Shown one piece after another: positions 10,572-63,969 of a DNA stretch of 64,000 nucleotides; position 1 is the first letter of the stretch, and every line of letters starts with the position of its first letter. Source of the stretch: Halalkaliarchaeum desulfuricum (GTDB lineage Archaea; Halobacteriota; Halobacteria; Halobacteriales; Haloferacaceae); contig NZ_CP025066.1 of NCBI RefSeq assembly GCF_002952775.1, positions 2,728,001 to 2,792,000 of the forward strand, read 5' to 3'. The translations under genes were made by a program, and so were the position numbers. The notes beneath the pieces are model-generated. The model did not search any database, was not told the origin of the DNA, and saw only the letters and a list, made by a program, of their open reading frames with translations.

Positions 10572-11751
10572 CGACACATCGAACGAAAACGGCGGTACCG
10601 AAACCGAAACCGAAACCGAAACCGAAACCGAAACCGAAACCGAAACCACGACGGCGTCGAACCCGGGGGGCGAAACGGAGACGATCCTGGTTTCGGCCGT
10701 CGACGACGTGACCGGGAAGACGGCGGTCACCCTTGCGATCGCGACGCAGGCGGCCGAGGAGCGTTCGGTCGGCTACATGAAGCCGAAGGGGACGCGCCTC
10801 GAGAGCAAGGTGGGCAAGACGCTCGACACCGATCCGATGCTCGCCCGGGAGCTGCTCGGGCTCGAGGCCGAAATGCACGACCTCGAACCGGTCGTCTACT
10901 CGCCGACCTTCATAGAGGGGGCGATCCAGGGGCGCGAGGATTCCGCCGAGCTGCACGACCGCATCCGGGAGGCGTTCGACTCGCTCAGTTCCGGACACGA
11001 CCTGATGTTCGTCGAGGGGGGCGGCCGATACACGACCGGCGGAGTCGTCGATCTCAGCGACGTCGACATCGCGGAGCTGCTGGACGCTCGCGTCGTCCTC
11101 GTGGCCGACTACGAGGAGCCGGGCGATCTCGACGATCTGCTCGGCGCTGCGGACGCGTTCGGCGACCGGCTGGAGGGCATCATCTTCAACGCGGTCGACG
11201 ACGCAGCCTACGACGGGCTCGAACGGGACGCGATCCCGTTCCTCGAAGCCGAAGGAATCGACGTGTTCGGCGCGATTCCCGAGGTGCAGGAGCTATCCGG
11301 AGTCACTGTCGACGATCTGGCGGACGAACTCGGTGCGGACGTTCTCACGGACGTGCCTGGCGACGCGTTCGTGGAGCGGTTCCTGGTGGGCGCGATGGGC
11401 GGGGACGCCGCCCTCCGCCACTTCAGACGCGCCCGGGACGCGGCCGTGGTGACCGGCGGGGATCGGTCCGACGTCCAGACGGCGGCACTCGAGGCGCCGG
11501 GCGTCCGGTGTCTGGTGCTCACCGGCGGCCACCGCCCCTCCAGCGCCGTACTCGGGAAAGCCACAGAAGCGGGTATGCCGGTGCTCGCGGTGAACACCGA
11601 CACGCTCACCGCGATCGAACGCGCAGAAGGAGTTGTGCGGGGGGGACGCACACGGTCGCCCGAAACCGTTGAGGTGATGCGCGGGCTGTTACACGAGCAC
11701 GTGGATGTCGACCGGGTGTTGGAGGGAGAAGACTTTCGAGCCGACTACTGA
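10564..11751 (+). CDS. Phosphotransacetylase-like protein with DRTGG domain
   Basis: Protein of 395 residues built from an N-terminal dethiobiotin-synthetase/BioD-like P-loop domain (about residues 38-235; ETILVSAVDDVTGKTAVTLA and FVEGGGRYTTGG) and a C-terminal DRTGG domain (about 240-385). It resembles the regulatory front part of some bacterial phosphotransacetylases but lacks the catalytic Pta domain, so it is more likely a regulator or sensor of acetate metabolism than an enzyme. It overlaps acd by eight bases and must be co-transcribed. The first 30 residues are low complexity: eight Thr-Glu repeats encoded by eight ACCGAA units, a likely slippage site (see the repeat entry). Confidence 0.85.
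   Translation: MTDDTSNENGGTETETETETETETETETTTASNPGGETETILVSAVDDVTGKTAVTLAIATQAAEERSVGYMKPKGTRLESKVGKTLDTDPMLARELLGLEAEMHDLEPVVYSPTFIEGAIQGREDSAELHDRIREAFDSLSSGHDLMFVEGGGRYTTGGVVDLSDVDIAELLDARVVLVADYEEPGDLDDLLGAADAFGDRLEGIIFNAVDDAAYDGLERDAIPFLEAEGIDVFGAIPEVQELSGVTVDDLADELGADVLTDVPGDAFVERFLVGAMGGDAALRHFRRARDAAVVTGGDRSDVQTAALEAPGVRCLVLTGGHRPSSAVLGKATEAGMPVLAVNTDTLTAIERAEGVVRGGRTRSPETVEVMRGLLHEHVDVDRVLEGEDFRADY
10597..10647 (+). repeat. Hexanucleotide microsatellite (ACCGAA)8
   Basis: Eight perfect ACCGAA units followed by ACC, inside the 5' end of the DRTGG-domain gene and encoding eight Thr-Glu pairs. Because the unit is six bases, changes in copy number keep the reading frame and would only lengthen or shorten the acidic N-terminal tail. 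Confidence 0.95.
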
Positions 11752-11766
11752 GACGACCAGGTGAGC

Positions 11767-11789
11767 GGTGGTAATGGCTGATTACCGCC
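11767..11789 (+). terminator. Hairpin after the acd operon
   Basis: Nine-base stem GGTGGTAAT / ATTACCGCC (one G-U pair) with a GGCTG loop, starting 15 bases after the stop of the DRTGG gene. There is no T-run behind it, so it may be a terminator or an mRNA-stabilising 3' hairpin. Confidence 0.4.
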
Positions 11790-11892
11790 AGCGGCCGGCG
11801 GGATAGACAGAGCACAGTGGGGGTCGAGGCGCCCGGAACTGATCAGTATCAGGCGGCCCATACCTATTGGGTTTCGGGACTATTCTTCGTCC

Positions 11893-12069
11893 ATGGGGTT
11901 CGTCTGGGAAGCCAGCCTTCGGTGTGGGAACTGCAACGCCGCGTTCAAGGGGCGACCGATCGAGTACGACGACCTCGGCTATCCGATCTGTCCCGCCTGC
12001 GGCGAGTCGCACGGCCCGACCTCGCCCGGTGGAACCCGGCGACGGGAATCCTCCACGGGTCAGGTGTAA
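11893..12069 (+). CDS. Small zinc-ribbon protein (58 aa)
   Basis: A 58-residue gene. The protein starts MGFVWEASLRCGNC and carries two CxxC knuckles: Cys11/Cys14 (CGNC) and Cys33/Cys36 (CPAC), 18 residues apart, the spacing of a rubredoxin-type zinc ribbon. A basic tail (GGTRRRESS) follows. Many haloarchaeal micro-proteins of this kind exist and some affect swarming, biofilm or stress responses, but the function of this one is unknown. A TATA-like CCTATTGG about 25 bases before the ATG suggests a leaderless transcript. It lies between the acd operon and the aldolase gene, same strand. Confidence 0.75.
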   Translation: MGFVWEASLRCGNCNAAFKGRPIEYDDLGYPICPACGESHGPTSPGGTRRRESSTGQV

Positions 12070-12115
12070 GCGGTTTCGGCTGTCGCTCGTCACTGCTCGA
12101 CGTCCGGGGCCGGGA

Positions 12116-12121
12116 GTTTAT
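12116..12121 (+). promoter_or_regulatory. TATA box for the HpcH/HpaI aldolase gene
   Basis: TTTATA centred about 29 bases before the ATG at 12148. The distance fits transcription starting at or next to that ATG, which supports it over the in-frame ATG at 12133, only 12 bases downstream of the box. Confidence 0.65.
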
Positions 12122-12147
12122 AGTGCACCCCTATGGGAAACTGTAGT

Positions 12148-12924
12148 ATGGAACAACGACTGGCGACTGCCGTCGACACCGCCGAACCCTTGATCGGGAG
12201 CTGGGGATTCATTCCGCATCCGTCGACGGCCGAACTCGCAGCGAGCGTCGGGTACGACTTCGTCGTCGTCGACGCGGAACACTCGCCGATGTCGGACGAG
12301 ACGGTGGCGGAGATGCTCCGTGGAATCGACGCCGCAGACGGCGACGCCGAAACGATGGTCCGCGTCGCCGACGACGACCCGACGACGCTACAGCGAACCC
12401 TCGATCTCGGTCCCGACGCGATCCTCGTTCCGATGGTCGATACCCCCAAACAGGCAGAGCGCATCGTCCGCGCCGCTCGCTACCCGCCGTCCGGCAGCCG
12501 TGGGATCGGACCCGCGCGATCGACGGGATACAGCCTCTCGCTCGCCGAGGCAGTCGAGGCCAACGACGACGCGTTCGGACTTCACGTCCAGCTCGAATCG
12601 GAGCAGGCGATCGACAACGCCGCCGAGATCGCTGCCGTCGACGGGGTCGACGGCGTGTTCGTCGGGCCGATGGACCTCTCGCTGTCGATGGGAGGGCTCG
12701 GCGAATACGACACCGACAGGTTTCAAACCGCGGTGGATCGGGCGCTTACCGCAGCCCGGGAGGAAGCCGTCGCGGTCGGAACCCTGGCCACCGACGCCAC
12801 CGAACGCGAGCAACGGCTCGCGTGGGGGGTCGACTATCTCGTCGCCGGCGTCGACCTGCTCCACGTCGCCGACGGGGCGAAGGAGGCGCTCGCCCATAGC
12901 CGAGATCTCGTGGGGGATGAGTAG
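12148..12924 (+). CDS. HpcH/HpaI-family aldolase
   Basis: Metal-dependent class II pyruvate aldolase of 258 residues, probably cleaving a 2-oxo-3-deoxy or 2-oxo-4-hydroxy acid to pyruvate (or oxaloacetate) and an aldehyde. Family motifs are present: GSWGFIPHPSTAELAASVGYDFVVVDAEHSP near the N-terminus, the metal-binding Glu in HVQLESEQAIDNA, and the metal-binding Asp in VFVGPMDLSLSMG. A cluster of sugar-acid catabolic genes is not present nearby, so the substrate remains open. The start is set by the TATA box at 12116. It converges on the AhpD-like gene. Confidence 0.88.
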   Translation: MEQRLATAVDTAEPLIGSWGFIPHPSTAELAASVGYDFVVVDAEHSPMSDETVAEMLRGIDAADGDAETMVRVADDDPTTLQRTLDLGPDAILVPMVDTPKQAERIVRAARYPPSGSRGIGPARSTGYSLSLAEAVEANDDAFGLHVQLESEQAIDNAAEIAAVDGVDGVFVGPMDLSLSMGGLGEYDTDRFQTAVDRALTAAREEAVAVGTLATDATEREQRLAWGVDYLVAGVDLLHVADGAKEALAHSRDLVGDE

Positions 12925-12980
12925 CGTCGCGGGCTGCTTTTGCCGACACGCCGAACGTCATGTCCGTAGATGGATGCCGA

Positions 12981-13589
12981 CTATCCTCCGTCGTCAGTTC
13001 CGCTCCGGCCCAACTCGTAAAACTCGTCGTTCGGCCGCCAGTCGGCGAACGTCGCGAGCCGGTTCGAGAGGTTAAAAAACGCCGCGACGACGCCGATGTC
13101 CCACACTTCTGCCTCGGAGAACCCGGCATCGTACAGCCGGTCGAGGTCCTCGCGTGTGACTGACGCGGGTCGTTCGGTCAGTTTCACCGCCACGTCGAGC
13201 ATGACCCGGTGAGCGTCGCTCACGTCGGCGGTGCGGTAGTTGGAGATCAGCTGCTCGGCGAGGTGTGGATCGCCGGCGTAGATCCGGCACAGCGCGCCGT
13301 GGGCGACGTTGCAGTACAGACAGTGGTTGACTCCCGAGACGGCGACGACGATCATCTCTATTTCCGCCCGGTCGAGCGCCCCCTCGTCGACGATCGCGTC
13401 GTGGAAGTCGACGAACGGCCGGAAGTGCTCCGGTCGGTGCGCGAGCGCGGCAAACACGTTCGGCGTGAAACCAGCGTCGGCGGTTTCCTCGGCGATCCGG
13501 TCCTGCAGGTCTGCGGGGAGATCGTCGAAGTCGGGCACCGGGAAGTTGCGCTGTGCGTCGTCGGAAAGCGTCGGTTCGGAACCGCTCAT
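12981..13589 (-). CDS. AhpD/carboxymuconolactone decarboxylase-like peroxidase-related protein
   Basis: Alpha-helical protein of 202 residues with the AhpD core: a CxxC pair in NHCLYCNVAHG near residue 111-114, followed by a His, the arrangement used for peroxide reduction in alkylhydroperoxidases. The remainder (VMLDVAVKLTERPASVTREDLDRL, FSEAEVWDIGVVAAFFNLSNRLA) matches the peroxidase-related subfamily of about 200 residues. An upstream extension to 13703 is out of family and I start at the ATG at 13589. It stands alone between the aldolase and a serine hydrolase. Confidence 0.88.
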   Translation of the reverse strand: MSGSEPTLSDDAQRNFPVPDFDDLPADLQDRIAEETADAGFTPNVFAALAHRPEHFRPFVDFHDAIVDEGALDRAEIEMIVVAVSGVNHCLYCNVAHGALCRIYAGDPHLAEQLISNYRTADVSDAHRVMLDVAVKLTERPASVTREDLDRLYDAGFSEAEVWDIGVVAAFFNLSNRLATFADWRPNDEFYELGRSGTDDGG

Positions 13590-13656
13590 GATCGGCGGTT
13601 CGTCACACGTGCCCTTCAAACTACGACCGGCAATCGACAACGTTTGACCGCGCAGC

Positions 13657-15042
13657 TCAGGCCTGGTGCAGGCGGAGGCGTTCGAGGAACAGGTCGATCC
13701 CATCGTCGGTTTCGACGAACTCTACTGTCGACTGCCGCCCGCCCCGAGTGCGCGTCCGGAACTGCCACTCCTCGAGGTTCTCCGGGACGAGCGCGACGGT
13801 CCGTTCGTCGATCCCGTTTTCGAGGGTCACCCACAGAACCCCGTCACGTTCTTCGACCGTCGCCTCCCTGATCCCCGCGTACGCCTCGTAGCTCCCCACG
13901 AGCGGATCGATACTGTCGTGGTACGTGTAGTAGGGCACGACGTCGGCGGGGTCTTCCCCCTGGAGGGTGGCGACGATCCCCTCTGCGACCTGGGTCGGAT
14001 GGGGTCTGGCACCGATATTGCAGGCGATCGCGACGCCGAGCCCCTCCTCGGGGAGAAAGCCGACGTACGCGGTCGAGACCATGATCGACCCGCCGTGGCC
14101 GACCAGTTGTGTGCCGGCGATCTTCCGGGTGCGCCAGCCGTAGCCGTACGGTCCCGACGGGGTCTCGACGTGGCCCTCGTGAGCCCGGGCCAGCAGATCC
14201 GGATCGACGAGTTGCGAGCCGTCCGGCAGTGGCTCGCCGCCCGAAAGATGGTAGCGCAGATAGGCTGCGAGTTCCTCGACGGTGCCGAAGAGCCCGCCGG
14301 GGCCGTGGCTCAGCTCACGGACGGGGAGTGACGCCTCCTCGGGGGCGTCCTCGCCCGGCCGGTAGGGCGTCATCACGTCCGGAGCGTCCTCGTCGTCGGT
14401 GTCCAGTCCGGGAAGGCTATCGGAAAGCAGCCGTGAACGATCCATGCCGAGCGGGGCGAAGATTTCGCTGTCGACGTATTCGGCGAACCGTCTACCGCTT
14501 TCACGTTCGACTGCGTCCGCGAGCAGGACGTACGCCTCGTTGTTGTACATGAATCGTCCCTCGCTGTGAGCGTCCCGCTCTCTCTCGGCGCCGTCGACGT
14601 GTGCGTACACGTCGTCCATGTCGCCCAGCGGGATTCCGTGTTCGCCGGCGCCGCCCTGGCGCGCGATCAGTACCTCGCTCGTTCCCAGGGACGGAACCCC
14701 CGAGGAGTGCGTCAGCAACTGATGGAGTGTGACTTCACCAGCCCCGTCGAACTCGGCCGGCGTGTGCTCGGCAATCGAGTCGGAGAGGTCGAACCAGCCC
14801 TTTTCAACCCCCTGGAGCACGGCAAGCGCCGTGAACGACTTCGTGACGGAGCCGAACCCGTACAGCGTGCTCGGCGTCGCCGGTGCGTTGCTCGCGAGGT
14901 CCCGCGAGCCGAATCCGTCGGCGTACACGACCTCGTCACGATCGGTGATCGCGATGCTCGCTCCCGGAACGTTCGCCTCGGCCATCCACTCGCGGACGAA
15001 CGAGGCGATTTCGCGTTCGGTGTCGGTCGATAGGTCGGCCAT
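13657..15042 (-). CDS. Serine hydrolase, beta-lactamase/class C family
   Basis: Protein of 461 residues of the penicillin-binding-protein/beta-lactamase superfamily. The nucleophile motif SxxK is SVTK (Ser65-Lys68), the YxN motif is in [10 protein letters not shown], and the third motif is GHGGS near residue 350. A C-terminal lipocalin-like domain (last 110 residues, [15 protein letters not shown]) follows, as in many archaeal and bacterial esterase/peptidase homologues. No signal peptide or lipobox is seen at the chosen start, so it is probably cytoplasmic; a longer open frame to 15285 is shadow of the divergent permease. Substrate unknown: esterase, D-peptidase or other. Peptidoglycan is absent in archaea. 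Confidence 0.88.
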
Positions 15043-15162
15043 ATCGCTATCCGTGCGGCCAGCCGACTTCAAACTCCGCGTACCGGGAGAGACAGCCGGT
15101 TCGGCCGAAGTGAGTCCGGTTCCGACGGCAGACTTATTGGCCTGTTGTGTGATCATTCCGGT

Positions 15163-16614
15163 ATGGCCGATCGGGACGTCGAGGTGCCGATCGACGGAGA
15201 ACAGGTCGCCGGGACGGGGGCGAACGTCGAGGGAGCCCGGCCCGAAGACGAACCGGACGCAATCACTGAAAGCGCGACAGTTCACGACGACGACGTCGAG
15301 CTCGAACGGACGATCGGACTGGCGGGAGGGTTAGCGATCGGGATCGGCACGATGATCGGCGCGGGGATCTTCGTGTTTCCGGGATTGGCCGCGGGCAACG
15401 CGGGACCGGCAGCCGCAATCTCCTTCGCCATCGGCGGTGTGATCGCCCTGCTGGTCGCCCTGCCGGCATCGGAGCTGGCGACGGCAATGCCGCGAAGCGG
15501 CGGGGGATATTACTTCGTCTCCAGGAGCATGGGCACCGGATACGGCGCAATCGTGGGGCTCGGGCTATGGCTCGGATTGGTGTTTGCATCCGCCTTTTAC
15601 CTGGTTGGACTCGGGCATTACGCTGCCGCGGTTTTCGCGGAGATCGGCGTCGCACTGCCAGTTAGCCCGGTGATCCCGCTCGGGTTACTGTTCGGGGTGC
15701 TGTTGACCGCACTGAGCATCGGCGGGACCGAAAACACCGCCAAGATTCAGAACGCGGTCGTCGGGATTTTATTGGTGATCCTGACAGTGTTCCTGTCGTA
15801 TGGCGCCCTCGATGCGGTGGGCGTCTTCGGCCGGGAGACGGTGCCGGAGGCGTTCTTCCCGCGGGGATACCTGCCGGTACTGACCACCGCCGCGCTCGTG
15901 TTCACCTCGTATCTGGGGTTCGCGCAGGTGGCGACGGTCGCCGGGGACATCCAAAAGCCCAGCCGGAACCTCCCGCTCGCGATGGTCGGCTCCGTGATCG
16001 TCGTTACGGTCTTTTACGTGGCGACGATCTTCGTGGCGACCAGCGCGTTCGGGGCCGCAGAGCTCGAGGCGTTCGGCGAGACGGCGATGGTCGAGGTCGC
16101 CCGTGAATTCGTCGGCCTGCCCGGCGCGGTCGCGATCCTGTTTGCGGGGCTGCTGGCGACGTTCTCGAGTGCGAACGCCTCGATTCTCAGCGCCTCGCGC
16201 ACCGTTTACGCGCTGAGCCGGGACGCGCTGTTGCCCAGGAAGGCAAGCGTGATCAACCTCAGGTATGGGACTCCCCACGTCGCGCTGCTCGCGGCCGGGG
16301 GCCCCATCCTGATTCTGGTCGCCACCGGGCAGGTCGAGGTGCTCGCGGAGGTGGCCTCGTTCCTTCACCTGATCATGTACGGGCTGATCTGCGTGGCGGT
16401 GATCGTGCTTCGGCGTCAGAGCCCGTCGTGGTATGAACCGACGTATCACATGCCAGGAGTGCCAGTCCTGCCGATCGTCGGCGCGGTCGCCAGCTTCGGT
16501 CTGATCGTCTTCATGCAGCCCGCCTCGATCGTCATCGGTGTCGGCGTGATGATCCTCTCGTACCTGTGGTACCGCTACTACGCCGGCACCGTCGAACTCA
16601 AAGGTGACTTCTGA
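15163..16614 (+). CDS. APC-family amino acid permease
   Basis: Integral membrane transporter of 483 residues with about twelve hydrophobic segments after an acidic cytoplasmic N-terminus (about 45 residues). The APC signature is clear: [29 protein letters not shown] in helix 1 and the [21 protein letters not shown] stretch in helix 3. It probably moves an amino acid or polyamine; specificity cannot be read. The UspA gene starts two bases after its stop, so the pair forms one operon, a common haloarchaeal arrangement in which the Usp part regulates the carrier. A TATA-like element (CTTATTGG, about 15133) lies roughly 28 bases upstream of the ATG. Confidence 0.92.
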
Positions 16615-56952: not shown

Positions 56953-58431
56953 TCAGGCCAGGAACACGTGCCGCGGCCGGTCCGCAAGGACGTCCCGCCC
57001 CCAGTCGACGGTGTCGCGGAACGCGTCAGAGCGGAAGAACGCCATCGCGTCCTCGCGGGAGCGCCACTGACTGGCGATGAACGTGTCGTTTTCGTCTTCG
57101 ACGTTGATCAGCAGATCCGTGTCGTGGTGGCCGTCCATTTCGGCGAGCATGCCGCCAACGGTTTCGAACTTCTCGATGAAATCGTCCCGGTGTTCCGGCT
57201 TGATCGTGTAGAACATCCCCATGGTTCCGAAGCCGGATTCCTCGCCCGCACGCGAGACGATTTCGGGGAGTTCAGACAGGAACCCGGCGGCAGTTTCGGC
57301 CGCGGAGTCGGTCTCCCAGATGCTCACGACCGCGTTGCGGTCGCGTTCGCGACCGCGGTAGACGGCGGTTTTGACGTGCGTGTCGTAGTGGTCGAAATTG
57401 GCACGGAGGCCGTCGACCTCCTCGAACAGGTCTTCCGCCTCCGCCTCGGAGTACAGCACTGTCGCATAGACGTCCTCGCCGTGTGGCTTCCCGGCGTAAA
57501 TGTCCATTTCCTCGAGCTGGCCGCGGATCTCGTCAGTTTCGTCGGCCTCGTCGGCATCGGCGGTGTCGTCGGCATCGTCGGTCTCGCCAGGTGGGCCATG
57601 GCCGTGGCGTTCTCCATGGGCGTGTTCCTGCTCGGGTTCGTCGTGTTCGGCGGTGGGAACTTTCGCGCCTTCGAGGAACGCCCCCAGATCGCTCGGCGGG
57701 AACCGCCGGCCGACGTAGAAGTAGGGGAACTCGCCGTACAGCGAGGAGGCCTCGTCGAACCGCATCTCGTAGACGATATCCTTCAGGTGAACCGGATCGT
57801 CGGCGAACAGCGTGACTCCCCACTCGTGGTCGTCGAGTCCGACGGAGGAGGCGACCACCTGCGAGACGTCGCCGGCGTATTTGCGACCGAACTTCCCGTG
57901 GCCCTCCATCAACTCCGCGCGCTCGTCGAACGAGAGGGCGTACCAGTTGTACTTCTCCCCGCGTCGCTTGTTCATCGGGTAAAAGCAGAGGTACTCGTTT
58001 TCGGGAATCTCCGGTTCGAGCTTGCCTTCGATGTATCGACGCAGCCCCTCGTTGGTTTCCTCTGCGTCTTCCTTGAAGTAGTCGTCCGAGACGTACCCCG
58101 AGACCTCGGTCACCGAGACGTACGACGTCGATCGTTCGGTAAACGCGGCGAGTCCGGTCGTCTCGAACCGGCGCTCTAGCGCCGAGAGGTCATCGAGCGT
58201 CGGACGAAAATGAAGGATGAGCAGATCGGCTTCATGCCCCATCATCGAGAATATCGCCGACTGCCCGTCCTCGGCGTCTGCGAGGGCTTCACACTCCTCG
58301 AGGAACGCCTGTCCCTCCTCGATCGCTCGCGTTCGGCGGCGTTGCGGAGTCTCCTGCCAGTGCTGCCAGTCGATCGTCCGGAAGTCGTGGAGTACGTACC
58401 AGCCTTCGTCGGTCTGGGGTGGCTCTACCAT
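56953..58431 (-). CDS. pitA: PitA-type fusion of chlorite-dismutase-like and antibiotic-monooxygenase domains
   Basis: Protein of 492 residues. The first 250 residues are a chlorite dismutase/HemQ fold: the heme-ligand region ELMEGHGKFGRKYAGDVSQVVASSVGLDDHEWGVTLFADDP (probable proximal His178) and the coproheme-decarboxylase-type FYPMNKRRGEKYNWYAL. Residues 262-282 are a His/Glu-rich linker (EHDEPEQEHAHGERHGHG), followed by an acidic stretch and a C-terminal dimeric alpha/beta-barrel antibiotic-biosynthesis monooxygenase domain (about 318-492). This fusion matches haloarchaeal PitA; coproheme decarboxylation or heme handling is the likely role. Starts at ATG 58431; a much longer frame to 59739 is antisense shadow. 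Confidence 0.9.
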   Translation of the reverse strand: MVEPPQTDEGWYVLHDFRTIDWQHWQETPQRRRTRAIEEGQAFLEECEALADAEDGQSAIFSMMGHEADLLILHFRPTLDDLSALERRFETTGLAAFTERSTSYVSVTEVSGYVSDDYFKEDAEETNEGLRRYIEGKLEPEIPENEYLCFYPMNKRRGEKYNWYALSFDERAELMEGHGKFGRKYAGDVSQVVASSVGLDDHEWGVTLFADDPVHLKDIVYEMRFDEASSLYGEFPYFYVGRRFPPSDLGAFLEGAKVPTAEHDEPEQEHAHGERHGHGPPGETDDADDTADADEADETDEIRGQLEEMDIYAGKPHGEDVYATVLYSEAEAEDLFEEVDGLRANFDHYDTHVKTAVYRGRERDRNAVVSIWETDSAAETAAGFLSELPEIVSRAGEESGFGTMGMFYTIKPEHRDDFIEKFETVGGMLAEMDGHHDTDLLINVEDENDTFIASQWRSREDAMAFFRSDAFRDTVDWGRDVLADRPRHVFLA

Positions 58432-58725
58432 GGACCCGAGTACGGACTGGAACTGTTTGGCTTTTGTGAGTCTTCGTTCCGACTCGTTCGCGGTCTTCGA
58501 GTCGAGATCCGCTGGAAATTGCCCGCGGGGGATTGAATACTGGTGGTTTCGCGCTAGTTGTTGTTTTCCATCAGAACCCGGAGTCAGCACCGACGACCTA
58601 CGGACCCGAGAGTTCAACGTTTTCTGCCCAATCATAAACAACTGTATAATTAATCTCAAGAACCCGCTTATAAACACATGTATATTCGACATCACAACAT
58701 ATGTTCTTGAAGTCGAAACCTGAGT
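58432..58725. promoter_or_regulatory. AT-rich divergent promoter region with 8-bp inverted repeat
   Basis: The intergenic region between pitA (minus) and the duplicated lipoprotein gene (plus) turns AT-rich over the last 100 bases. TCAAGAAC (58656-58663) and GTTCTTGA (58703-58710) are perfect inverted copies 39 bases apart, flanking TATA-like TTATAAAC (58669-58676) and CATATG. The second half ends 15 bases before the ATG at 58726, so a bound protein could govern the lipoprotein gene. Confidence 0.5.
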
Positions 58726-59709
58726 ATGATGCCAGGGGACAGTCCAGCGGTTGACGAGGAGAGGGAACGCCAAACAACTGACAGCAGAGGTCGTGTTTCG
58801 ACGCAGCGTCGGGCGGTACTGGCGGGGACGGCCGGGTTCGCGTCGGTGGCGCTGGCCGGCTGTGCCGGCGAAGAGGAGCCGACGCCGACGCCGGAGCCGA
58901 CACCCGAACCGACGCCGGAACCGACGCCTGAGCCACAGAACTACGTCGTCACCGACGACATCATCGCCGGGTCCGCGGGCGTGCCCGAGGGTGCTGGCGG
59001 CTTCGCGCAGGCCTGCTCGCCCCAGCGGCAGTTCATCCCAGGAATGCAGCCGGTGTTCAAGATCGGCATCTGGGACCCTGCCACGGGCGACATCGTCGGC
59101 GACGACGTCGTCGACGAGGCCACCGTCGACATCGACGACGGGCCGACGCTCGAACTCGAATTCAGCGATGAGGACGCCGAATGGGACCAGAGCTGGGTGG
59201 TTCCCGACGACTGGGAGCCGGGAACCGTCACCTACGAGGTGCAGGTGACAAACGAGGGCGAGTACCGCAACGTCGGCATCCTCGAAAGCGAGTTCGAGGT
59301 CATCGACTTCGACGACCCCAAAAACTACGTCGTCACCGACGACATTCGTGCCTCCAGCGGCGGCATTCCGGACGGCGCACAGTTCGTCTCGACGTGTGGC
59401 CCCTCGCGTGCGTTCGTGCCGGGGATGACGCCGATCTTCGACATCGGCGTCTACGACGGTTCGACCGGCGAGCCGGTCGGACCCGAGGTGATCGACGAGG
59501 CGATGCTCATCACCGACCGGGACTTCGAGGCCGAACTCGAGTGGCAAGGAGAGGACGACGAGGACCAGTACTGGCAAACTACCTGGGAACCGATCCCGGA
59601 AGACGAAGAGACCGGAACGGTCACCTACGAGGTGCAAATCACCAACGAGGGCGAGTTCTACAACGTCGGTATTCTCGAAAGCGAATTCGAGATCATCGAG
59701 TGGGAATAA
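58726..59709 (+). CDS. Tat lipoprotein with two tandem YVVTDDI domains
   Basis: Extracytoplasmic lipoprotein of 327 residues that I cannot place in a family. Twin-arginine signal STQRRAVLAGTAGFASVALAGC gives lipidation at Cys46, followed by a Thr-Pro/Glu-Pro linker (residues 52-70). The rest is two copies of a beta-rich domain: residues 73-194 and 201-325, each starting NYVVTDDI, having FIPGMQPVFKIGIWD or FVPGMTPIFDIGVYD, one Cys (Cys97 and Cys224), and ending TYEVQ(V/I)TNEGE(Y/F).NVGILESEFE. An internal duplication is certain. The single Cys in each copy and the conserved aromatic/acidic residues suggest binding of a ligand or a redox partner; function unknown. It lies next to redox genes. 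Confidence 0.85.
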   Translation: MMPGDSPAVDEERERQTTDSRGRVSTQRRAVLAGTAGFASVALAGCAGEEEPTPTPEPTPEPTPEPTPEPQNYVVTDDIIAGSAGVPEGAGGFAQACSPQRQFIPGMQPVFKIGIWDPATGDIVGDDVVDEATVDIDDGPTLELEFSDEDAEWDQSWVVPDDWEPGTVTYEVQVTNEGEYRNVGILESEFEVIDFDDPKNYVVTDDIRASSGGIPDGAQFVSTCGPSRAFVPGMTPIFDIGVYDGSTGEPVGPEVIDEAMLITDRDFEAELEWQGEDDEDQYWQTTWEPIPEDEETGTVTYEVQITNEGEFYNVGILESEFEIIEWE

Positions 59710-60067: not shown

Positions 60068-60946
60068 TCAGGGGTTTTCGTCGATTGAAAAGTCCGCGCG
60101 CGGGTAGCTCACGCAGGTGAGGAGGTACCCATCCTCGATTTCATCGTCGTCGAGGTACTGATTGCCGTCCATCTCCTGCACCTCGTTGGCGTCACCGTCG
60201 GTTTTGGCTTTGCAGACCCCACAGACTCCAACTTCACACTGGTAGGGGAGGTCGAGTCCCTCCTCGAGGCCGGCGTCGAGAAGCGTTTCGTCTTCGGAGA
60301 TGTCTAGCGTGGCGGCGTTGTTCTGGAACTCGACGGCGTGGGTGGCGTCGTCTTCGTCGTCGTCGACGTCGTCCCAGATGTCGTCTCCCTCGTCGGGATG
60401 GGTGTCGACCGGGAAGTCCGCGCGCGGGTAGCTCACGCAGGTGAGGAGGTAGCCCTCCGCGATCTCCTCGTCATCCAGGTACTGGTTGCCGTCCATCTCC
60501 TGGACCTCGGTTGCGTCGCGGTTGGTCTTGGCCTTGCAGACGCCACAGACCCCGGTTCTGCACTGGTAAGGGAGATCGAGTCCAGCTTCCTCACCGGCGT
60601 TCAACAGGTCCTGGTCCTCGGAAATGTTTACCACCGTCTCATCACGGAGGAAATTCACGTCGAACGCCTGGGCCTCATCGGGGTCCTCATCCTCATCCGG
60701 TTCCTCATCCTCATCGGGATCGGGGTCGGGATCGGGCTCTGCATCCGGTGGATCCGAACGGCCCACGTACCGCTTCTCTTCGGGAACTTCGAACATCCCG
60801 AGACAGCCTGCGAGCGCGACTGTCCCGCCGGCGGCCGCCGATTTCAGGAGAAGCCGACGCTTCGTCCGGGGACAGTCACCACCGTCACAACCTTCGGAAG
60901 TTGAGGTGTCGTCGGGACGTTGCCGTTCGTGATCGTCACTGCTCAT
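60068..60946 (-). CDS. Tat lipoprotein with two tandem plant-type [2Fe-2S] ferredoxin domains
   Basis: Extracytoplasmic electron carrier of 292 residues. Twin-arginine-like KRRLLLKSAAAGG followed by lipobox LAGC gives lipidation at Cys48; then an acidic low-complexity linker (residues 69-92, Asp/Glu/Pro). The first [2Fe-2S] domain has ligands Cys129, Cys134, Cys137, Cys170; the second Cys237, Cys242, Cys245, Cys278 (LDLPYQC...GVCGVCKAK, then YLLTCVSYPRADF). The domains are nearly identical, and the DNA repeats are recent (next entry). Ferredoxins of this class are normally cytoplasmic, so Tat export as a double-domain lipoprotein is unusual. It lies 460 bases from the Fe-S/NrfD genes, divergent. 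Confidence 0.88.
   Translation of the reverse strand: MSSDDHERQRPDDTSTSEGCDGGDCPRTKRRLLLKSAAAGGTVALAGCLGMFEVPEEKRYVGRSDPPDAEPDPDPDPDEDEEPDEDEDPDEAQAFDVNFLRDETVVNISEDQDLLNAGEEAGLDLPYQCRTGVCGVCKAKTNRDATEVQEMDGNQYLDDEEIAEGYLLTCVSYPRADFPVDTHPDEGDDIWDDVDDDEDDATHAVEFQNNAATLDISEDETLLDAGLEEGLDLPYQCEVGVCGVCKAKTDGDANEVQEMDGNQYLDDDEIEDGYLLTCVSYPRADFSIDENP
60090..60451 (-). repeat. Internal duplication of ferredoxin-domain DNA
   Basis: The block AAGTCCGCGCGCGGGTAGCT... at 60090-60127 recurs exactly at 60414-60451 (38 bases, the C-terminal end of each domain), and the CxxxxCxxC regions around 60205 and 60529 are also close copies. The DNA-level identity marks a recent domain duplication of about 324 bases. 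Confidence 0.9.
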
Positions 60947-61406
60947 ACAATAACTGTCGACTCCAGAAGCCATTAGCACTGGTAAAGATTATGAAGATAT
61001 TTAAGTCACATCGCGGGCCGATTTCGGAACCATCTTGATCGGAACCATCTTGAAGGATCCCATCGTGGCGGTGATCGTATTCGAGTTGCTGTTTGGAGTT
61101 TTCATCTCCAATATTCCAGTAGAGAAGATGTTCAGTTTGTCTTCTACAGTTGCTATCCGCACTTTCGTGACGGAATATCCAAAATCATCGTGATTATTCG
61201 TTAATACTGAAGGTAATTTTCACACGTGCTTCGACAGCACCCCCTGCGTTTCGTATCTCCCCGAAAAGGGCAGGATGACGCCAGTTGTCTCCAGTTGTGT
61301 CGGTTTGGGCGCGGGGGGACTGGATTCGGTTTGGCCGACAGGAGGTATATAAACTACTGTCATATTCAAACGGACCCTTTCCCTCCTCTAGTTAAATTAT
61401 ACAGCT
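60947..61406. other. 460-bp intergenic region with repeats and hairpins
   Basis: Divergent region between the double-ferredoxin gene and the Fe-S subunit gene, markedly more AT-rich than the coding DNA. It has a 15-base tandem repeat CGGAACCATCTTGA(T/A) at 61025-61054, the hairpin TTGGAG/CTCCAA (61093-61098 and 61106-61111), and an imperfect GTAGAGAAGA/TCTTCTAC pair (61120-61147). No convincing gene: an ORF at 61226-61465 overlaps the next start and lacks protein-like sequence. Confidence 0.6.
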
Positions 61407-62645
61407 ATGAGTCAGGGAAACGATCCGCCGTATCGGGAGTCACAATCGACCCACGGTTTTCGTGACGCAGTTGGCAACGAGAAAGCCGAGGAGATCGACG
61501 AGGAACGCGCGCGGGAGATTCTGGCCGACGTGGAGTACGACACGGAGCTCGGAATCGAACTCGCTCGCGACTCCCGCCGACTGGCCGCCGGCGAGATGAG
61601 CGATCGCGAGTTCCACGAGAAATACAACGAGGCGATCCTCGAGGAGTTCGGTGTCGACGACCGGCCGACGGACCCCGAGATGGCACACACCACGTCCCGT
61701 GGCGAACCGGGACCTGCGGCGGGTGACCCGAATCCGGGCTCCGACGGCCCGCTCCCGGGGGTTCCCGGAAGCGACGGGCCGACCCGTCGTTCGGTCCTCA
61801 AGACTGCCGGAATGCTGGGGGCGGCCGCGGTCGGCGGCACCGCAGCGCTGCAGGGGGCCGGCGTCGCGGCGGACAGCCAGCCGGAGACCGAGCCCGACAA
61901 GCAGATGGGCATGGTGATCGACACCGAACGCTGTATCGCCTGTCTGCAGTGTATGCAAGCCTGCAACGAGGAGAACAACACCGCCGAGGGATCGCTGTGG
62001 ATGTACGTGTTCCGGTACCAGCAGGACGACTACACCGACCAGGAACACTACCTCTCGCGGCCATGTCAGCACTGTTCGGACGCACCGTGTGTCAACGCTT
62101 GCCCGACGGCCTCCCGGTACCGCCGCGAGGAGGACGGAATCATCCTCACGGACTACGACCGGTGTACTGGTTGCCGATACTGTGAGATTTCGTGTCCGTA
62201 CGGCGTCAACTACTTCCAGTGGATCGAATCCGAGGACGAATTCGACTACGATCAGGAGATCGACGGTCGGACAGCCGCCGGCGATCCGCCGCAGGGCGTG
62301 ATGGGGAAATGTACTTTCTGCATTCAGCGTCAGGTTTCCGACGACCCCGAACTGCAGGGAACCACCGCCTGCGAGGACGCCTGTCCGGTCGACGCGATCC
62401 ACTTCGGCGACCTCGAGGATTCGGAGAGTCCTCCGAGACAGCACCTCGAAGAGAAAAAGGACTCCTCGAAGTTCCGGCTGTTCAAGGATGCGAACACCAG
62501 CCCGAACGTGTTCTACATCGGCAACGAACCGGAGGGGCATCCCGAACCAGTAGACGGCCCGACGAAACCCGAAGACATCGGACTGAGCAGGGACCGTCCG
62601 GGTCGTGACGTCTACAGCGACGGAGGTGAAGACGATGGCAACTGA
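61407..62645 (+). CDS. Four-cluster Fe-S electron-transfer subunit with internal Tat signal (PsrB/DmsB-type)
   Basis: Protein of 412 residues carrying 16 Cys in four [4Fe-4S] groups: Cys176, 179, 182, 186; Cys220, 223, 228, 232; Cys253, 256, 259, 263; Cys302, 305, 322, 326, the DmsB/PsrB/NrfC arrangement. Ahead of it are about 125 residues with an acidic N-terminal domain (EYDTELGIELARDSRRLAAGE..FGVDDRP) and then a twin-arginine motif (TRRSVLKTAGMLG, 126-138), so the Tat signal lies inside the chain, implying that the first 125 residues are cytoplasmic or cleaved. It partners the NrfD subunit of the next gene (11-base overlap). The catalytic subunit is not in view. TATA-like TTAAATTATA lies about 22 bases before the ATG. 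Confidence 0.9.
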   Translation: MSQGNDPPYRESQSTHGFRDAVGNEKAEEIDEERAREILADVEYDTELGIELARDSRRLAAGEMSDREFHEKYNEAILEEFGVDDRPTDPEMAHTTSRGEPGPAAGDPNPGSDGPLPGVPGSDGPTRRSVLKTAGMLGAAAVGGTAALQGAGVAADSQPETEPDKQMGMVIDTERCIACLQCMQACNEENNTAEGSLWMYVFRYQQDDYTDQEHYLSRPCQHCSDAPCVNACPTASRYRREEDGIILTDYDRCTGCRYCEISCPYGVNYFQWIESEDEFDYDQEIDGRTAAGDPPQGVMGKCTFCIQRQVSDDPELQGTTACEDACPVDAIHFGDLEDSESPPRQHLEEKKDSSKFRLFKDANTSPNVFYIGNEPEGHPEPVDGPTKPEDIGLSRDRPGRDVYSDGGEDDGN

Positions 62646-63969
62646 TCAGGAAACATTCGCAGAGCAGACCGTACTGAACCCGCTAACCAGTATCAGCAAG
62701 AAGTATATCGCGGTACTGATCGCGCTGCTCGCGTTCGGGGCGATCTACGCCGAGGCGCTCGTCCACCAGCTCCGGTACGGACTGGTCGTCACCGACATGG
62801 CGTCGTGGGGAACACAGGCCGGCGTCACCTGGGGGCTGTACATCGGCGCCTTCGAGTGGTACGCCGGCTCCGCCCTCGGATCGATCGCGCTCGCGGGCTA
62901 CATCCGATTCCGCGGGATCGACGACTACGAGATGTTGGCCCGACTGGGAGAGCTGTGGGCGGTGATCGCCGCCATCTGTGCGTCGTTCCTCATCGTCATC
63001 GACCTCGGTCGCCCCGAGCGGGTGATCTACGTGATGGAAAGCTGGCCAACAACGGTCCAGCACTCGCCGCTTGCGTGGGACGTGACGTTCGTCACCATGC
63101 TCATCGTGGTTTCGACGACGATGCTCGCGATGTCACTTCGCCGTGACTACGGCTGGATGGACGTCGAGTTGCCGCTTCGTGCCCGGATCCCGCAGAAACT
63201 GTTGACGGTGGGGTACTCACCAACGGAAGGACCGAAGCTCACCTCGATGCTGAAATACATGGGCGCCGGCATGCTGTTGCTGGTCGTCACCGCCGGAATG
63301 GTTCCGGGATGGCTGTTCGGCGTCGTCGGCCCACAGCCGGGATACTACGGCAAGATCCAGGGGGTCGTCTTCATCACCGGTGGTATCCCCGCCGGGATCG
63401 GGGCCCTTACCGTGATCGCGTACGCGATGCGGCGGATTTACGACCTCGAGGACGCCCTGCCAGACTCGATGTTCTTCAACCTGGGGAAGGCACTCGGCCT
63501 GTTCACCTTCGTGTACCTGATCGCGCTGTTCAATCAGTTCATGCCGATGGTGTTCCCGATGGCGCCGCTGGGCGGTGCCTCGATCGCGGACGCGATGCTG
63601 TACGGCGCGCTGTCGACGTACTTCTGGACATCGATCGCGTTGCTCGTGTTCCCGATGCTCGCACTGACGTGGGTGTACGTCTACCGGACGATCACGCCGG
63701 AGGTCACCGTCGTCGCATCGATGATCATCATGTTCGGCGTGTTCATCAAGAAGAACCTGGCCGTGCTGGAGCCGTTGATGTTCCCGGTCGGGCTCCCGTA
63801 CGAACACGGCGTCTACTTCCCGACGACCGTCGAATGGGTGATTTCGCTCGGTGTGCTGTTCGTGGGGATCCTGGCGTTCATCGTCCTCATCAAGATCATT
63901 CCGATGTGTTCCGGGACCGGTGTCTGCTGTCGGAGTTCCGATGAATCGATCGAGGAGGTGGAAGCATGA
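62635..63969 (+). CDS. NrfD/PsrC-type quinone-interacting membrane subunit
   Basis: Integral membrane protein of 444 residues with eight to ten hydrophobic segments, the anchor that exchanges electrons between quinol and the Fe-S subunit. Conserved helices: FEWYAGSALGSIALAGYIRFRGIDDYEML (with charged residues in the helix ends), IYVMESWPTTVQHSPLAWDVTF and YFWTSIALLVFPMLALTWVY. The last 20 residues have an unusual Cys cluster (MCSGTGVCCRSSDESIEEVEA). The start is set at ATG 62635 because GGAGGTGA lies at 62622-62629; an in-frame ATG at 62605 is less likely. The next gene overlaps its stop by four bases. Confidence 0.92.
   Translation: MATDQETFAEQTVLNPLTSISKKYIAVLIALLAFGAIYAEALVHQLRYGLVVTDMASWGTQAGVTWGLYIGAFEWYAGSALGSIALAGYIRFRGIDDYEMLARLGELWAVIAAICASFLIVIDLGRPERVIYVMESWPTTVQHSPLAWDVTFVTMLIVVSTTMLAMSLRRDYGWMDVELPLRARIPQKLLTVGYSPTEGPKLTSMLKYMGAGMLLLVVTAGMVPGWLFGVVGPQPGYYGKIQGVVFITGGIPAGIGALTVIAYAMRRIYDLEDALPDSMFFNLGKALGLFTFVYLIALFNQFMPMVFPMAPLGGASIADAMLYGALSTYFWTSIALLVFPMLALTWVYVYRTITPEVTVVASMIIMFGVFIKKNLAVLEPLMFPVGLPYEHGVYFPTTVEWVISLGVLFVGILAFIVLIKIIPMCSGTGVCCRSSDESIEEVEA

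Follow-up and report, generated by a model that had tools for sequence, protein, structure and literature searches.

The chromosome of Halalkaliarchaeum desulfuricum AArc-Sl encodes a tandem plant-type ferredoxin that probably acts as a membrane-tethered, extracytoplasmic electron carrier of a quinone module without catalytic subunit, in place of a multihaem cytochrome c. Ferredoxins are small iron-sulfur electron carriers that normally stay inside the cell and, to our knowledge, cytochromes c, copper proteins or HiPIPs as a rule serve as the single-electron carriers outside the cytoplasm. The proposed role rests, by sequence and comparison, on two full cysteine sets, a conserved export signal, a conserved neighbouring module and the lack of an adjacent molybdoenzyme. 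The window referred to below is the whole stretch of DNA analysed, 64,000 nt long, which corresponds to positions 2,728,001-2,792,000 of the single 3,313,120-base chromosome of this sulfur-respiring archaeon (PMC6176080). Its relevant features are collected in Table 1.

Table 1. Features of the ferredoxin gene and its neighbours, in window coordinates
Feature	Position	Strand	Remarks
Tat lipoprotein with tandem Ig-like beta-sandwich domains	58726..59709	+	near the ferredoxin in 12/22 loci
Tandem [2Fe-2S] plant-type ferredoxin, predicted Tat lipoprotein	60068..60946	-	292 aa
Ferredoxin domain 2 (Cys237, 242, 245, 278)	60080..60343	-	Fer2 / TIGR02008; beta-grasp model
38-base exact match, domain 2 copy	60090..60127	-	
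Short acidic linker, domain 1 to domain 2	60344..60391	-	
Ferredoxin domain 1 (Cys129, 134, 137, 170)	60392..60670	-	Fer2 / TIGR02008; beta-grasp model
38-base exact match, domain 1 copy	60414..60451	-	likely gene-conversion patch
Acidic Asp/Glu/Pro linker, lipid anchor to domain 1	60671..60793	-	mostly with AlphaFold pLDDT <50
Twin-arginine motif (codons 30-31), h-region and lipobox LAGC (Cys48)	60803..60868	-	in 21/21 double-domain relatives; dN/dS ~0.06 against the same-genus orthologue
TATA-like element TTAAATATC	60996..61004	-	50-58 bases upstream of the ATG; putative promoter role
Tat-signal 4x[4Fe-4S] subunit (16 Cys), NrfC/DsrO/PsrB kind, in divergent orientation to the ferredoxin	61407..62645	+	Pfam Ferredoxin_N, Fer4_11
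NrfD-family quinone-reactive membrane subunit	62605..63969	+	PF03916 70.6 bits, cut-off 25.8; a crude hydropathy count gives ~9 hydrophobic spans

Gene, export signal and predicted lipid anchor

Two stretches of the ORF match Pfam Fer2 (PF00111; 102.6 bits, cut-off 21), both domains are recognized by NCBIfam fdx_plant (TIGR02008; 140.6 bits, cut-off 81.15), and each domain has a complete cysteine set of the motif CX4CX2CX32C. By profile score and cysteine motif the protein is a plant-type [2Fe-2S] ferredoxin, whose cluster sites are presumably occupied. It does not belong to the cytoplasmic haloarchaeal ferredoxin family Fer (NF041393), against which it scores 89.9 bits, below the cut-off of 150. 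Among proteins of known structure, its relatives by sequence are ferredoxins of plants and cyanobacteria, and the AlphaFold model, in which disordered linkers separate two beta-grasp domains of moderate confidence (pTM 0.36), also matches plant-type ferredoxins in the PDB. Plant-type ferredoxins such as 1rfk and 3p63, or the haloarchaeal 1doi and 1e0z, share this fold and the CX4CX2CX32C motif; unlike them, the window protein has two domains and is predicted to be exported and lipid-anchored. Outside the cluster sets its cysteines are 20, 25 and the lipobox Cys48, and 18 of the 33 linker residues from 63 to 95 are acidic.

Regarding the start codon, the ORF begins with the ATG at 60946; a start at the in-frame GTG at 60979 would make the protein 11 aa longer. 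In favour of the ATG, no in-frame start precedes the equivalent ATG of the same-genus orthologue (L048, genome G004). The TATA-like element has a counterpart, TTTAAATGTC, at the equivalent place in this orthologue.

Near the N-terminus, KRRLLLKSAAAGGTVALAGC comprises the Tat motif, the h-region and the lipobox, that is, all three elements of a haloarchaeal Tat lipoprotein (KRRLLLKS..LAGC, with the twin arginine, the h-region and the lipobox Cys). Between 78 and 87% of predicted haloarchaeal lipoproteins are Tat-dependent (PMC2945643). The architecture given in the original prediction, namely a twin-arginine motif, a LAGC lipobox, an acidic linker and two domains (Cys129-170 and Cys237-278), is fully present at those positions. 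The 21 double-domain proteins aligned agree without exception (21/21) in both arginines, in the Gly-Cys of the lipobox and in the eight cluster cysteines. Furthermore, codons 27-62 of AArc-Sl and of the G004 orthologue differ with a dN of 0.05 and a dS of 0.93, and therefore the signal is translated and selected. This purifying selection and the invariant residues support the predicted export by Tat as a lipoprotein, as had been proposed. An internal start at Met51, an in-frame ATG just past the lipobox Cys, would leave the signal unused and give an ordinary cytoplasmic double ferredoxin; this is hardly credible against the strong selection on the signal region, the retention of the arginine pair and the lipobox Cys in several genera, and the conserved TATA-like element upstream of the ATG at 60946.

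A separate observation concerns the linker. The 4x[4Fe-4S] lipoprotein of a molybdoenzyme operon (L010:11458-12471; G000:C1:2843457-2844467) resembles window positions 60703-60811 (85% over 109 nt), and the two proteins have in common the lipobox and linker GCLGMFE-PEE-RYVGRSDPP. We rejected this likeness as a sign of a common partner because the linker of the same-genus orthologue differs, which makes a recent exchange of the segment between both genes the likely origin.

History and distribution of the tandem form

The original prediction also held that near-identical domains with exact 38-base matches reveal a recent duplication. There is indeed one 38-base match (the next longest has 17 bases), which sits in a 227-nt repeat of 78% identity, but "near-identical" overstates the likeness, since the domains are 72% identical in protein and their compared parts 74% in DNA. 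As for the recent date, it is rejected by dS and by site patterns: the two domains are separated by a dS of ~1.1 within AArc-Sl and of 0.6 within G004, about as far as the two species are from each other, and 24 informative sites favour a duplication before the species split versus 3 that favour later homogenisation. The duplication is thus older than the split of AArc-Sl and G004. Two of these three homogenisation sites (60434 and 60428) fall in the 38-base patch, which suggests local gene conversion, and the match looks like such a patch.

In a domain tree of 60 rows and 95 columns, whose deep forks are poorly resolved, domains 1 and 2 group together within the Halorubrum MAG, G422, G339, Halodesulfurarchaeum and G004_D. 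Therefore, the two-domain form either arose repeatedly or was kept similar by conversion, that is, there were several separate origins or homogenisations. A single ancient duplication was rejected because the tree does not separate domains 1 and 2 and its starred branches force at least 7-8 changes (on 95 columns only). One exported protein has a single domain in AArc-Sl and two in G004.

Exported double-domain ferredoxins occur in 14 of the 392 Halobacteriales genomes surveyed (8 of 96 genera), which bears out the claim that a ferredoxin of this kind is uncommon. AArc-Sl has three of them and one single-domain exported form, and of the 170 genomes of the family only G004 and one Halorubrum MAG showed the double form besides AArc-Sl. 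All matches in a sample of 295 genomes from the phylum belonged to the order, and the search for plasmid spread gave two weak partial matches only. Halobellus, Halapricum, Natronolimnohabitans and Halorubrum have exported forms with a single domain. Beside single-domain exported ferredoxins we also saw Tat lipoproteins of the ethylbenzene-dehydrogenase type (PF09459, haem b; L171:7678-9282 and L055:5455-7119), the one at L055 adjoining a Fer4/NrfD pair as well.

A search with the window ferredoxin as query finds one or more ferredoxins in 163 of the 170 family genomes, and most of these matches are of another kind. Represented by L014:6951-7610, this kind is widespread in haloarchaea, has one domain and a hydrophobic helix at the N-terminus, and is likely membrane-anchored. 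It is close to the window ferredoxin in domain sequence. However, it has the hydrophobic helix where the window ferredoxin has the Tat signal and lipobox, it forms its own group in the tree (86/75), and it is not found beside NrfD.

The conserved NrfD module and other neighbours

The two genes that diverge from the ferredoxin encode a 4x[4Fe-4S] (Fer4) subunit and a multi-spanning protein which, with PF03916 above its cut-off, belongs to the NrfD/PsrC family. The best NCBIfam match of the Fer4 subunit is DsrO (168 bits, below the cut-off of 200), and the other equivalog scores of both subunits are also below their cut-offs (DsrP 66.8/350, QrcC 137/400, NrfC 125/378); judged by these profiles, the module falls short of the DsrMKJOP, NrfABCD or Qrc complexes proper. 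Such pairs are of two kinds, Fer4-NrfD(long), to which 61407-63969 belongs, and NrfD(short)-Fer4; AArc-Sl also has a Fer4/short-NrfD pair after the long one, just past the window end. The first is most like DsrO/DsrP and QrcC and the second most like DsrO and NrfD, in all cases below the equivalog cut-offs. The divergent orientation means that ferredoxin and pair do not form a common operon in the window; ferredoxin, Fer4 and NrfD are co-directional at the second and third AArc-Sl loci (L012 and L013) and at L169 and L170 of Halodesulfurarchaeum.

NrfD and 4Fe-4S genes lie within 9 kb of 18 of the 22 double-domain loci, versus 1 of 67 control loci of non-exported ferredoxins with NrfD anywhere in the 20 kb (Fisher p=4e-14; orthologous loci lack independence, but the 18 come from at least six genera). 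These tallies used HMMs built in this analysis from few sequences and uncurated, and the survey covered NrfD modules near ferredoxin loci. NrfD was not seen near L049, L168 and L052 (a short contig), and at L164 we saw Fer4 and no NrfD. Furthermore, none of the 22 loci, some of them on short contigs, has a match to the catalytic subunit MoptA within 9 kb. With no adjacent molybdopterin subunit, the ferredoxin locus does not appear to be a complex iron-sulfur molybdoenzyme (CISM) operon.

Regarding the Ig-like lipoprotein, many of the 12 loci that have it also carry CoxG, an SsuA-like ABC transporter and a 477-aa Ig-like protein. This tandem-repeat lipoprotein (also L227:8895-9875) occurs in 24 of the 392 genomes, and we rejected it as an obligate partner because 13 of these 24 have no double ferredoxin; it is tied rather to CoxG and the ABC transporter. 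The window also encodes, at 56956-58500, a chlorite-dismutase-like protein fused to an antibiotic-biosynthesis-monooxygenase domain.

Proposed role and alternative readings

The ferredoxin would most likely fold and receive its [2Fe-2S] clusters in the cytoplasm, be exported folded by Tat and then be lipidated at Cys48, so that both domains would hang on a flexible acidic tether between the membrane and the S-layer. There it would exchange electrons one at a time with the 4x[4Fe-4S] subunit, likewise exported by Tat, which would dock on the quinone-reactive NrfD subunit, and the three proteins would make up a quinone module without catalytic subunit. The tandem ferredoxin would stand where the NrfB-NrfCD, DsrJ-DsrOP and QrcA systems have a multihaem cytochrome c. 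We infer this role because the Fer4/NrfD pair resembles DsrOP, NrfCD and Qrc, whose bacterial outer partner is such a cytochrome; like the docking, the electron direction (to or from menaquinone) and the final partner belong to the inferred part of this reading, together with cluster occupancy and lipidation. Bacterial pairs of the Fe-S/NrfD type are encoded with periplasmic c-type cytochromes (PMC10924467). The AArc strains have neither complex III nor c-type cytochromes (PMC6176080), and the usual outer carrier of haloarchaea is the lipoprotein halocyanin (PMC8305020). Two Halodesulfurarchaeum genomes have an exported ferredoxin, and the copper proteins of the halocyanin family (PF00127) are absent from both.

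The original prediction saw in this protein a possible outer-surface shuttle between the NrfD module and an external acceptor. The link to the module is supported (18/22 versus 1/67), whereas the acceptor has no counterpart among the genes beside the ferredoxin, which encode neither a terminal acceptor nor a catalytic subunit, and either direction of flow is possible. Plant-type ferredoxins usually have potentials well below that of menaquinone, and therefore flow into menaquinone would be easier, while flow from quinol to ferredoxin would be uphill and need a driving force. These potentials favour a variant in which electrons from a low-potential oxidation outside, or from an extracytoplasmic dehydrogenase, pass through the ferredoxin, Fer4 and NrfD into menaquinone, and the conserved set of Ig-like lipoprotein, CoxG and SsuA-like ABC transporter suggests that a substrate may be taken up and oxidized. 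We nevertheless hold this variant to be somewhat unlikely, as no dehydrogenase gene adjoins the ferredoxin and the same set is also found without it.

A second variant of the proposed role, in which the ferredoxin is an outlet to sulfur species outside the cell and passes electrons to polysulfide, to sulfur or to an anchor-less molybdoenzyme lipoprotein, is unlikely, although PsrA-like enzymes are present in 11 of the 14 double-ferredoxin genomes versus 0.9 expected (p=2e-12; by genus 6/8, p=8e-5), and AArc-Sl has two NrfD-less molybdoenzyme operons in which the PsrA-like (L010:7075-9429) or the Fer4 subunit (L010:11458-12471) is a predicted lipoprotein. This co-occurrence may mirror an anaerobic lifestyle alone, PsrA has its own membrane anchor in most double-ferredoxin genomes, and 14 of the 25 PsrA-positive genomes have no exported double ferredoxin, so that sulfur respiration does not generally depend on it. 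The main PsrA-like locus of AArc-Sl (L010) has no membrane anchor beside psrA; however, all but two (L217 and L218) of 18 further PsrA-like loci encode one, and we rejected the idea that the exported ferredoxin serves anchor-less Psr enzymes. It is very unlikely, in our view, that the ferredoxin serves at the surface as a reductant for protection or repair in general, against oxidants for instance, with NrfD nearby only by chance: some single-domain relatives (L053/L059, L054) do lie near universal stress genes without NrfD, and the window has the chlorite-dismutase-like protein, but the contrast in NrfD proximity between double-domain and control loci speaks against it.

The two NrfD-less operons (L010:7075-10713 and 11458-15882), each with a lipoprotein-type subunit, lie ~50 kb from the window ferredoxin. 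The Psr operon of AArc-Sl has been reported without psrC (PMC6176080) and may be one of them.

Regarding known systems, the Fer4/NrfD module is close to bacterial NrfB-NrfCD, DsrJ-DsrOP and QrcABCD, which also combine an NrfD-type membrane subunit with a Tat-exported 4x[4Fe-4S] subunit, although their outer carrier is a multihaem cytochrome c and here it would be a lipid-anchored tandem [2Fe-2S] ferredoxin. The halocyanins of haloarchaea, lipid-anchored blue copper carriers (PMC8305020, PMC2945643), are likewise lipoprotein one-electron carriers outside the membrane, but carry copper and not a [2Fe-2S] cluster, and the potential of the ferredoxin is presumably low. We found no published experiment on the window ferredoxin and no earlier description of an exported [2Fe-2S] ferredoxin module in the literature searched, which leaves out most subscription journals.

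With slightly less than an even chance, anaerobic haloarchaea without a cytochrome c network may use lipid-anchored tandem ferredoxins generally, as low-potential outer-face carriers for NrfD/4Fe-4S quinone modules, iron-sulfur proteins in the part that periplasmic cytochrome c and halocyanin play elsewhere. If plant-type ferredoxins are exported as a conserved trait, and repeatedly with two domains, they would make a further class of extracytoplasmic carrier and a direct lead to the way in which salt-saturated sulfur-respiring archaea, without cytochrome c, connect their quinones with redox reactions outside.
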